A DNA stretch of 64,000 bases from Acidimicrobiaceae bacterium. GTDB lineage: Bacteria > Actinomycetota > Acidimicrobiia > Acidimicrobiales > Poriferisodalaceae. Shown here in pieces: positions 22,670 through 25,654 of this stretch. The notes under the pieces were generated by a model that worked only from the letters and a program-made list of their open reading frames with translations, was not told the origin of the DNA and made no database searches. Location of the stretch: NCBI GenBank assembly GCA_905182565.1, contig CAJJCB010000026.1, positions 248,001-312,000 on the forward strand, in the 5' to 3' direction. The first letter of the stretch is position 1; every line of letters begins with the position of its first letter. A program made the translations under genes and the position numbers.

Positions 22670-22823
22670 CGGGAGTCCTTCACCGAGTATTGAGATGGGA
22701 TAAATGAAAGGCTATGTGAGAAGTTCACTAGCAACCACTTTTGATTTCATAAGTAAGACTAGTTTATTAGTGACTAATCTGATTTATTGCAGATCAATAT
22801 CGGTAGTTAGGGAGCTTAGCTCG

Positions 22824-23702
22824 GTGGAAATTTCTGACAATAGGGAAGAAGCTCTCACCCGATGGTCATCAAGAGAGCGACGAGTGCTGCCTTGGAGGGC
22901 GACTCGGGATCCATGGAAAATATTACTGTCAGAAGTGATGTTGCAACAGACCCAAGTTGAACGTGTTGTGCCCAAATACGATTATTTTGTTGCTTCTTGG
23001 CCCGATATCGGCGATTTTGCTCAGGCACCCTTAGAGAAGATTCTTAATGCATGGAGTGGTCTCGGTTTCCCGAGGCGAGCAGTCAATCTCCACAGGACTG
23101 CGCGGTTAGTTGTGACCGAATATGGCTCGGTAATCCCCAAAGACCTCAAAACACTGTTGACTCTGCCCGGAGTTGGACCGTATACAGCTAGGGCTGTCCT
23201 TTGTTTCGCATACGAAATTGACATTGGCGTGGTTGATACAAACGTTGGAAGAATTCTTGCACGCTGGTTTGGTTCGCGATTTACAAATAAAACTGCTCAA
23301 TCGACAGCAGACAGCTTGGTCCCCTTGGGGCAAACCTGGGAATGGAATCAAGGTCTTTTTGATTTAGGGGCCCTTATTTGCAAAAAACATGACCCTAAAT
23401 GCTCCCAATGCCCAGTTTTCGAATGGTGTTCATGGCAGGGACTTGGACTAGATCCATCTATCGGAAGCGCTGGAGTGAGTTCGTCGCAGAAACCGTTTAG
23501 TGGGAGCGACCGGCAAGCACGAGGCAAGCTATTAAGAGCGTTGTCTGATGGTCCAGTATCTTGCGCAAAGGCGAAATGTGTAATGGGAATAGCTCCAGAA
23601 ACTATTAGGGCTGACAAGCTAGTGGCAGCCCTAATAGCGGATGGACTAATCTACTTGGCGCTTAACGGCCAAGAATTACGGTTGGGTAATAGCTTCGATT
23701 AA
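22824..23702 (+). CDS. mutY: A/G-specific adenine glycosylase, MutY-like
   Basis: Base-excision repair glycosylase removing adenine opposite 8-oxoguanine. LPWRATRDPWKILLSEVMLQQTQ is the MutY N-terminal signature, LPGVGPYTARAV the helix-hairpin-helix, and GVVDTNVGRIL carries the catalytic aspartate. The 4Fe-4S loop is C-x6-C-x2-C-x5-C (CKKHDPKCSQCPVFEWC). The C-terminal NUDIX-like domain of long MutY is missing, as is usual in short actinobacterial forms. GTG at 22824 is preferred; the frame extends to ATG 22704 with unrelated residues. The 3' end overlaps the convergent selenoprotein gene by 27 bp. Confidence 0.92.
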   Translation: MEISDNREEALTRWSSRERRVLPWRATRDPWKILLSEVMLQQTQVERVVPKYDYFVASWPDIGDFAQAPLEKILNAWSGLGFPRRAVNLHRTARLVVTEYGSVIPKDLKTLLTLPGVGPYTARAVLCFAYEIDIGVVDTNVGRILARWFGSRFTNKTAQSTADSLVPLGQTWEWNQGLFDLGALICKKHDPKCSQCPVFEWCSWQGLGLDPSIGSAGVSSSQKPFSGSDRQARGKLLRALSDGPVSCAKAKCVMGIAPETIRADKLVAALIADGLIYLALNGQELRLGNSFD

Positions 23703-24191
23703 CTCATCAATGGCTTTGTCAGCGATGATGATCATTTCATCGTCAGTCCGATCTTGGATTGGATGTTCTACCCAAACAGCAGCTGGATCAAAACCAAGTG
23801 CCCTACCTTGGACTTCAGCGCCATCAATGAATTGGGTAGTCGCTACGAAAACTCCTGGGATGCCTCGTCGCTCTAGATCGGTGATGTCATGCACACTGCA
23901 TGACGTGCAACTGCCTCAATCAGCTAATGCTTCGATTACAACGTCACATTTTGTTGATATTTCGTGACGTAGATCTACCGGCGCTGGTTTAGTGAAAGTC
24001 GGTTTTTTAAAACGCTTAACTTTTATGCCTTGTTCGATAAGCCGTTCCTCAATGCGATCTAAAAATCGATTGCCGCGAGGTTTACTGATGTCGAGCAGAC
24101 CGACTGTTAATCCCTTCAAAGAAGCTGGTCGAGCAACGCGCGGAATTTCAGTTGGTTTAGTTTCGTTCGTTGGATCGAGAACTTTTGTCAT
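23676..24191 (-). CDS. UGSC family selenoprotein (in-frame UGA = selenocysteine)
   Basis: A single 171-residue gene that conventional calling splits in two. The first 91 codons (VLDPTNETKPTEIPRVARPA, then GLTVGLLDISKPRGNRFLD) end at a TGA (23918-23916), and the frame continues as GSCTSCSVHDITDLERRGIP. Reading TGA as selenocysteine gives U92-G-S-C, the defining motif of the UGSC family, related to the selenoprotein B subunit of glycine/sarcosine reductases. A perfect hairpin 11 nt after the TGA fits a bacterial SECIS. An AGGAG ribosome-binding site precedes the ATG. It follows the thioredoxin-like gene by 14 bp. UGA is an ordinary stop elsewhere in the window. Exact reaction unknown. Confidence 0.9.
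23886..23918 (-). promoter_or_regulatory. Candidate bacterial SECIS element with recoded UGA
   Basis: The recoded TGA occupies 23918-23916. After 11 nt comes a perfect 8-bp inverted repeat, GTCATGCA (23904-23897) and TGCATGAC (23893-23886), around the loop GTG. The loop therefore starts 19 nt after the UGA and its first base is G, matching the bacterial SECIS rule (loop G, UGA-to-loop distance roughly 16-37 nt). Part of the sequence is also constrained by the conserved protein motif it encodes. Confidence 0.78.
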
Positions 24192-24205
24192 TTATTTCTC
24201 CTAAG

Positions 24206-25654
24206 TTATGGAGTGATTTCTACACATACAGGCGTTGAGCCCATGTCTCCGTTTACCCACCCTCCAATTATTGCTGAAAACAAGCCTGCTCCGCCACCAC
24301 AATGCACTATATGGAGACCACCTTGGCGGAACTTTGGTAAATCGAGCTCCTGAAGATCTGCTGAGATACCTTCCGCAATTCCATTTGCTCCTCGAACTAG
24401 ATCCTTTCCCGGTCGGATAGATAATTCGATAATTCGATCTGTGAGACGCTCGCGCGACCAACCTGCCTCTGCGAAAATTCTAGAATGATCAGGTGTTACT
24501 GCCAAAATCGCGTCGAACATCAGAACCAATTTTGGATGTTGTATGCCTAATAGATTGATGGCGAAAGTACGAGCTAAGGATTCTGGATCTCTCGAAATTT
24601 GGTCAGTTATGTTGTGGGGTGCTTCTCCGGGGAAAGCTAAGACGGTGTTAGTTCCTTTGGGGAAGCCATACATGGTTGATATGGGTTCCCAAGGAGAATC
24701 TGCCTCTCGCTCGGCGAAACAAAAACCAACTTTGGCTGGCGAACCGAGGGCTGCTCTGTCAACTCCGCCAGGTCGACCGCCGCCTACGTTCCTGACAACT
24801 AGTTGAACTGCTCTGCCGATTGTGCTGTTCGCTCTATTCCCTTGCCCGAATGCGTTACCGCTAGAGTTCATTCCGATTTGTTCTGCGATAGGGCCGTTAA
24901 CGACTAGTACAGGCGCGTGAGGCATCGTGGTAGCTAAAAGTCCGTGCATGTTGAAAGTTTCGTTGCATACTGCCTCTACCGCAGCTAGTACAATCGGTAA
25001 ATATTCTGGCTTACACCCGGCCATTACAGCGTTAATTGCTATTTTTTCAACCGTGCATGGGGTGAGATCTGGAGGGACCGAGGCGATAATTTCGCTGGGA
25101 AGTCTGCTAGTCCCAGCGAGCATGGATAATACTCTTTGCTCAGTCGGAGCAACTACCGGTAAACCATCGGTCCAACCACGATCGAACATTGCTTCGTGAG
25201 AATCTTCTAATGCCGCAAATTCGATTCGACGCCCGATTAGTGATGAGCCGCTGAACTTTGCTTCTAAATAGCTAGCAAGATTAGGATCTACCGAAAGAGA
25301 ACCGCATCCTGGTCTAAAAGGAGCGATGTCAGGTCCTAAATTTTTAAGCCCTGTGAACTCTTCCCAGATAGCCCGGTCCCATCCAACAATGCGGCTTGTC
25401 TCACCATCGGAAGCAACTTTTAGCAGTGTCGGAACGGTTTCAATTTCGTGATGCCAAGAAAAAAAGAGATCCTTGTCATCCACTAAATTGTGTAGACCAG
25501 ATGGAAAGTTGGGATCGTCCTGGCTGTATACCGTAATGTTCGCGCTTTTAGCAATGTCTGCAAGTACGCCTTCGACGAGCTCGCAAGTAGGGCAGTCGCG
25601 CTTCACAAAAGCGACGAGTCCTTCGGGCAGCGGAGGAGCTTCAAGTCGAGTCAT
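24206..25654 (-). CDS. Thioredoxin-like domain fused to a UGSC-partner domain
   Basis: Protein of 482 residues. The N-terminal 90 or so residues form a thioredoxin-like domain with the CxxC active site Cys21-Pro-Thr-Cys24 (FVKRDCPTCELV) and a VPTLLKV cis-proline segment. The larger C-terminal part (RGWTDGLPVVAPTEQRV, NAVMAGCKPEYLPIVLAAVE, a TMPHAPVLVVNGP strand and several glycine-rich loops) is a conserved domain I know only as a neighbour of UGSC proteins. It is the upstream gene of the selenoprotein operon and may reduce or deliver substrate to its partner (inference). Signal peptide absent, so cytosolic. Confidence 0.8.
   Translation of the reverse strand: MTRLEAPPLPEGLVAFVKRDCPTCELVEGVLADIAKSANITVYSQDDPNFPSGLHNLVDDKDLFFSWHHEIETVPTLLKVASDGETSRIVGWDRAIWEEFTGLKNLGPDIAPFRPGCGSLSVDPNLASYLEAKFSGSSLIGRRIEFAALEDSHEAMFDRGWTDGLPVVAPTEQRVLSMLAGTSRLPSEIIASVPPDLTPCTVEKIAINAVMAGCKPEYLPIVLAAVEAVCNETFNMHGLLATTMPHAPVLVVNGPIAEQIGMNSSGNAFGQGNRANSTIGRAVQLVVRNVGGGRPGGVDRAALGSPAKVGFCFAEREADSPWEPISTMYGFPKGTNTVLAFPGEAPHNITDQISRDPESLARTFAINLLGIQHPKLVLMFDAILAVTPDHSRIFAEAGWSRERLTDRIIELSIRPGKDLVRGANGIAEGISADLQELDLPKFRQGGLHIVHCGGGAGLFSAIIGGWVNGDMGSTPVCVEITP

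Follow-up and report, generated by a model that had tools for sequence, protein, structure and literature searches.

The UGSC selenoprotein family, its motif and its use of selenocysteine (Sec) had been described by 2008 in the GOS work, where Sec forms outnumbered Cys forms 255 to 21 and UGSC ranked among the commonest selenoproteins of surface waters (PMC2398784). In a 2026 review, UGSC is counted among the selenoproteins with largely uncharacterised functions (PMC13188914). Our literature search, with most subscription journals outside its reach, found no paper on UGSC in Acidimicrobiia or on the upstream partner gene considered below. Here we analyze a UGSC gene of a marine actinobacterium within a window of 64,000 nucleotides (the whole stretch of DNA that was analysed). 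As an overall explanation, we regard it as highly probable that this gene encodes a UGSC selenoprotein, with UGA decoded as Sec and with an inferred two-part reductase mechanism; the components of this explanation differ in strength and are graded separately in the following sections.

The UGSC gene and its homologs

The gene is located on the minus strand, at positions 23676 to 24191, and is predicted to encode a protein of 171 aa with one UGA read through. The frame starts with an ATG at 24191 and consists of 91 codons, the TGA (positions 23916 to 23918, minus strand), another 79 codons and a TAA at 23676-23678. In a mechanical ORF list, the halves on either side of the TGA appear as two separate ORFs, and standard gene calling would split the gene. 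An earlier note on this DNA had joined the two minus-strand ORFs in frame via the TGA, with the resulting residue denoted U92, and both the frame and the active-site motif (U92-G-S-C, in full UGSCTSCSVHD) are exactly as claimed there. The good ribosome-binding site that it described is confirmed by direct sequence reading as AGGAG (positions 24198 to 24202, minus strand), 6 nt ahead of the ATG, and the proper C-terminus is borne out by a frame that runs to the TAA, with the Pfam match continuing through residue 169. The family label is upheld as well: the read-through product matches both the Pfam family UGSC (PF24696; residues 3-169, 144.9 bits against a cut-off of 25, 3.5e-42) and the NCBIfam family UGSC_fam (NF041046; 151.7 bits against a cut-off of 125, 1.4e-44). 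The last 27 bases of the gene (23676-23702) overlap, tail to tail, with a plus-strand gene for a HhH-GPD (MutY-like) glycosylase (22704-23702).

For comparison, we used the 80 closest homologs, mostly from named Acidimicrobiia MAGs and originating from many separate assemblies. All 80 contain TGA at the Sec site and continue past it in frame, none stopping there, whereas more distant UGSC members, namely, those of genomes G055, G048, G209 and G161 and of Natrinema, Halorientalis and Roseovarius, contain Cys in place of Sec. In the homolog alignment, D91, G93, S94, C95, C98-D102, E107, R109, G110 and P112, all around Sec92, are invariant. Because conservation extends to both sides of the UGA, TGA is present in every close homolog and the Pfam match is end-to-end, the read-through frame at 23676-24191 is, as far as sequence can tell, far beyond chance, and the gene is accordingly classed, on its sequence features, as a genuine UGSC-family selenoprotein, a further case of an already published family.

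UGSC matches were detected in 48 of the 61 genomes of relatives, nearly all of them with exactly one TGA. One genome of the same order (G048) yielded ten matches, far above its relatives. In the source genome, there are three UGSC paralogs, and every one of them contains a single in-frame TGA; in the third of these, L003 (G000:C26:138465-138899), the motif is UGSCTSGTVRD.

Predicted fold, upstream partner and possible function

In the AlphaFold2 model of UGSC (pLDDT 88.3), strands and helices alternate, with five strands in all; Sec92 is predicted to lie where a helix begins, right behind strand three. The structural matches of this model are Rossmann/flavodoxin-like, with Z scores up to 11.8, but they are so numerous and generic that the fold is uninformative with regard to function. 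The predicted fold thus looks Rossmann-like, unlike the thioredoxin-like fold assumed by the GOS authors (PMC2398784). No meaningful relative came up when the UGSC profile was searched against PDB sequences.

A resemblance of a different kind was detected to GrdB, the selenoprotein B of glycine/sarcosine/betaine reductase. The GrdB profile TIGR01917 weakly matches all 39 UGSC members (best 1.4e-6), and by eye as well as in a partial profile match, the Sec residues are in register (UGTGTRCGSTLAKELERAGIP in the GrdB-type proteins versus UGSCTSCSVHDITDLERRGIP in UGSC). The GrdB-type genes of this phylum themselves contain one TGA. The scores fall short of the family cut-offs (20.7 versus 602.2 bits for TIGR01917 and 13.6 versus 65.45 bits for TIGR01918), and by this measure UGSC is not a member of the GrdB family. 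Comparison of UGSC with GrdB using hhalign recovered the same register with a probability of 2.4% and an E value of 0.02, from a crude alignment of few sequences with spurious frames included; because this match is weak, the case for a relationship depends on the short conserved segment.

Directly upstream of UGSC, on the same strand and separated from it by a gap of 14 nt, is a gene for a 482 aa protein (positions 24206 to 25654, minus strand), hereinafter the partner, which contains an N-terminal thioredoxin domain (about residues 1-104, with the motif C21-P-T-C24) and a further C-terminal domain. Of the 78 homologous loci that extend far enough upstream, almost all have the partner, recognised by its DG-x-P motif, ahead of UGSC; a handful of matches fell in the wrong frame or at a greater distance. 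In a profile search of a phylum-wide sample, 28 of 30 loci had the partner next to UGSC, and the other two were shortened loci; among 296 genomes, UGSC was detected in 21 and the partner in 23, with both present in all 21 genomes that have UGSC. The association extends to more distant members: a single ORF of G048 (L132:1403-3532, minus strand) comprises both a Cys-type UGSC and the partner, and in Natrinema, Halorientalis and Roseovarius, partner genes annotated as hypothetical flank UGSC, the gene order in Roseovarius being partner, UGSC, trxB. One culturable carrier of the Cys pair is Roseovarius sp. THAF8. This near-constant neighborhood points to a two-part redox enzyme, as judged from gene order.

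Several partner genes and neighbors fall outside this pattern. Genomes G195 and G241 encode partners without a UGSC match at 1e-8, with several partner genes on one contig in G241. The source genome encodes a fourth full-length partner with a thioredoxin domain (L185:3915-5396, G000:C24), flanked by tpiA-like and secG-like genes and lacking an adjoining UGSC. The fused ORF of G048 is followed by a hydantoinase A-like gene.

The N-terminal domain of the partner matches the thioredoxin structure with a Z score of 9.3 over 99 residues (2.5 A); it is missing from the partners of the other two UGSC paralogs. Conserved residues of the partner include C214 and C230. Against Pfam and NCBIfam, the partner gave no match above the cut-off, and the weightier sub-threshold hits were to TraF/thioredoxin, in the N-terminal part. 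Likewise, the thioredoxin domain was the sole region of the partner matched using Foldseek and VIA; the C-terminal domain was not folded alone. Two candidate assignments of the partner were rejected: a relationship with fumarase or selenophosphate synthetase, which appeared in weak rows with a TM of about 0.2 that were not trusted, and a relationship with GrdE, given that the partner profile did not match two GrdE-like neighbors of GrdB-type genes.

We tentatively propose that UGSC and the upstream protein could constitute a thioredoxin-fed, two-part Sec reductase with a GrdB-like active-site segment, acting on a small organic substrate. Under this scheme, UGSC would be the single-domain, Rossmann-like Sec subunit, with an active-site segment resembling the Sec domain of GrdB-type reductases, and would work together with the directly upstream protein, probably as a two-part reductase. 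The selenolate, positioned at the N-terminus of a helix, would attack a substrate presented by the partner to give a selenoether or, with Cys95, a selenosulfide, and would then be reset by thioredoxin-type disulfide exchange. In the present locus, this exchange would be provided by the thioredoxin domain at the N-terminus of the partner itself; in other loci, by thioredoxin together with thioredoxin reductase. The plasmid-borne Cys members have as neighbors genes for CoA transferase, HMG-CoA lyase or CoA ester lyase, amidohydrolase, and TRAP or tricarboxylate transporters, which suggests catabolism of small acids. Weighing against the overall explanation are the low hhalign probability, the failure to detect GrdE likeness in the partner, the two paralog partners that lack a thioredoxin domain, the fourth partner with no neighboring UGSC, and paralog L003, which has no clear hairpin. 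A broader proposal, which we put forward as speculative, is that UGSC and the upstream protein represent a widespread, undescribed, aerobic two-component reductase of Actinobacteria, Alphaproteobacteria and haloarchaea, fed by thioredoxin, whose minimal GrdB-like domain, with Sec or Cys, would break a bond of a substrate that is either a small organic acid or CoA-linked.

Among the alternatives, the one that fares best, although we find it rather doubtful, is that UGSC is a general thiol-redox or peroxide-handling Sec protein, akin to the Prx/Trx-like selenoproteins, as opposed to a substrate-cleaving reductase. The UxxC motif, the thioredoxin-like fold supposed in the GOS paper and the trxB gene adjoining UGSC in Roseovarius are all compatible with such a role, whereas the Rossmann/flavodoxin-like predicted fold, the GrdB-like active-site segment, the location of several relatives among catabolic genes (CoA transferase, lyases and solute transporters) and the nearly constant presence of the large partner domain favor the substrate-cleaving reductase.

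Decoding of the UGA codon

The source genome (2.65 Mb, 95.6% complete) encodes the complete set of Sec components for which the earlier note had proposed a search, all of them above curated cut-offs: tRNA-Sec (65.5 bits; also called by ARAGORN as tRNA-SeC with the anticodon tca), SelB (270.9 bits), SelA (392.5 bits) and SelD (348.5 bits). The tRNA-Sec, selA and selB genes are located on one contig. The selD gene (L021, G000:C12:21547-22488) itself contains one in-frame TGA, and because of this codon, SelD of the source genome is likely a selenoprotein, too.

A SECIS-like hairpin, GUCAUGCA-GUG-UGCAUGAC, begins 14 nt downstream of the U of the UGA and occupies positions 23886 to 23904 (minus strand). 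The identical stem folds in most of the Sec homologs and in paralog L002, where the copy of the hairpin is even longer. Across 81 sequences, codons +4, +6, +7 and +10 never change in their third position, and codons +8 and +11 hardly ever do, whereas third codon positions elsewhere in the gene are free to vary. The sole variable third-position pair within the stem, that of codons +5 and +9, changes synonymously and covaries (G-C in 54 sequences, A-T in 25 and G-U in 2), such that A-T or G-C pairing is maintained in 79 of the 81. By mutual information, with kinship not modelled, this pair ranks first among the 10,731 third-position pairs in the region; base composition varies among the compared genomes, but this bias applies equally to the other pairs, all of which score lower. 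In 14 sequences, an A-A mismatch replaces one of the stem pairs, so that the lower stem is not absolute. At the corresponding place in four Cys members checked over part of the compared loci, the hairpin was not found. The usual location holds no clear hairpin in paralog L003, whose recoding signal may be different. An Rfam search of positions 23000-25000 at a relaxed threshold gave no match. Taken as comparative evidence, the folding, frozen third positions, covariation and absence from Cys homologs show selection on what appears to be a SECIS-like element.

In combination with the Sec machinery, these observations make it nearly certain, on comparative and genomic grounds, that the UGA at codon 92 is decoded as Sec by SelB and tRNA-Sec, directed by the short hairpin within the coding sequence. 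The two findings that the earlier note named as refuting, a genome devoid of Sec machinery and close relatives ending at this stop codon, were both looked for, and neither was obtained. Reading of the UGA as Cys, Trp or another residue, via a variant code or a suppressor, would equally keep the frame open but is very improbable. As the earlier note held in arguing for local recoding, UGA is an ordinary stop in the vicinity: of the window's 41 long open frames, which are mechanical frames and not curated genes, 15 end in TGA. Moreover, the terminal stops of the 80 homologs are TAG in 31 cases, TGA in 28 and TAA in 21; with TGA also at the Sec site of every one of these genes, UGA therefore has two meanings within the same gene. 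The Cys residues at this site in distant homologs and the tRNA-Sec with the anticodon tca also run against a variant code. Least credible of all, to the point of being negligible, is a pseudogene or sequencing error, with the UGA a true stop followed either by the remains of a decaying gene or by a small protein of its own, initiated at the GTG at 23894: a downstream 72-aa frame with a GTG start does exist, but the TGA is shared by 80 homologs from many separate assemblies and by three paralogs, residues on either side are strongly conserved, the Sec machinery is complete and the hairpin covaries.

Comparison with described systems

With this gene, the published UGSC family gains one more clear case; the partner is the more useful result. 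The near-obligate neighbor, the natural fusion, the thioredoxin domain or nearby trxB, and the GrdB-like active site jointly provide a concrete, testable lead on the function of UGSC. The protein in the window shares with the published family (PF24696, NF041046) the full-length match, the UGSC motif, the Sec site, the occurrence in aquatic bacteria and the predominance of Sec over Cys forms. There is no essential difference from the account in the GOS paper, apart from the Rossmann-like model in place of the supposed thioredoxin-like fold; that paper reports fusion to an 'Unknown_1' domain, whereas in the loci examined here we find a near-universal partner gene (PMC2398784).

The likeness to GrdB consists of the U-G-[ST]-x-T-x-C segment followed by L-E-R-x-G-I-P, with Sec in register. 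It covers only about 45 residues, UGSC being 171 aa long compared to about 435 aa in GrdB, and the neighbor of UGSC is not a detectable GrdE pyruvoyl proprotein. With thioredoxin, the N-terminal domain of the partner, and only that domain, has in common the fold and the CxxC motif at C21/C24; unlike thioredoxin, it is fused to a further domain of more than 300 residues, which carries most of the conservation.
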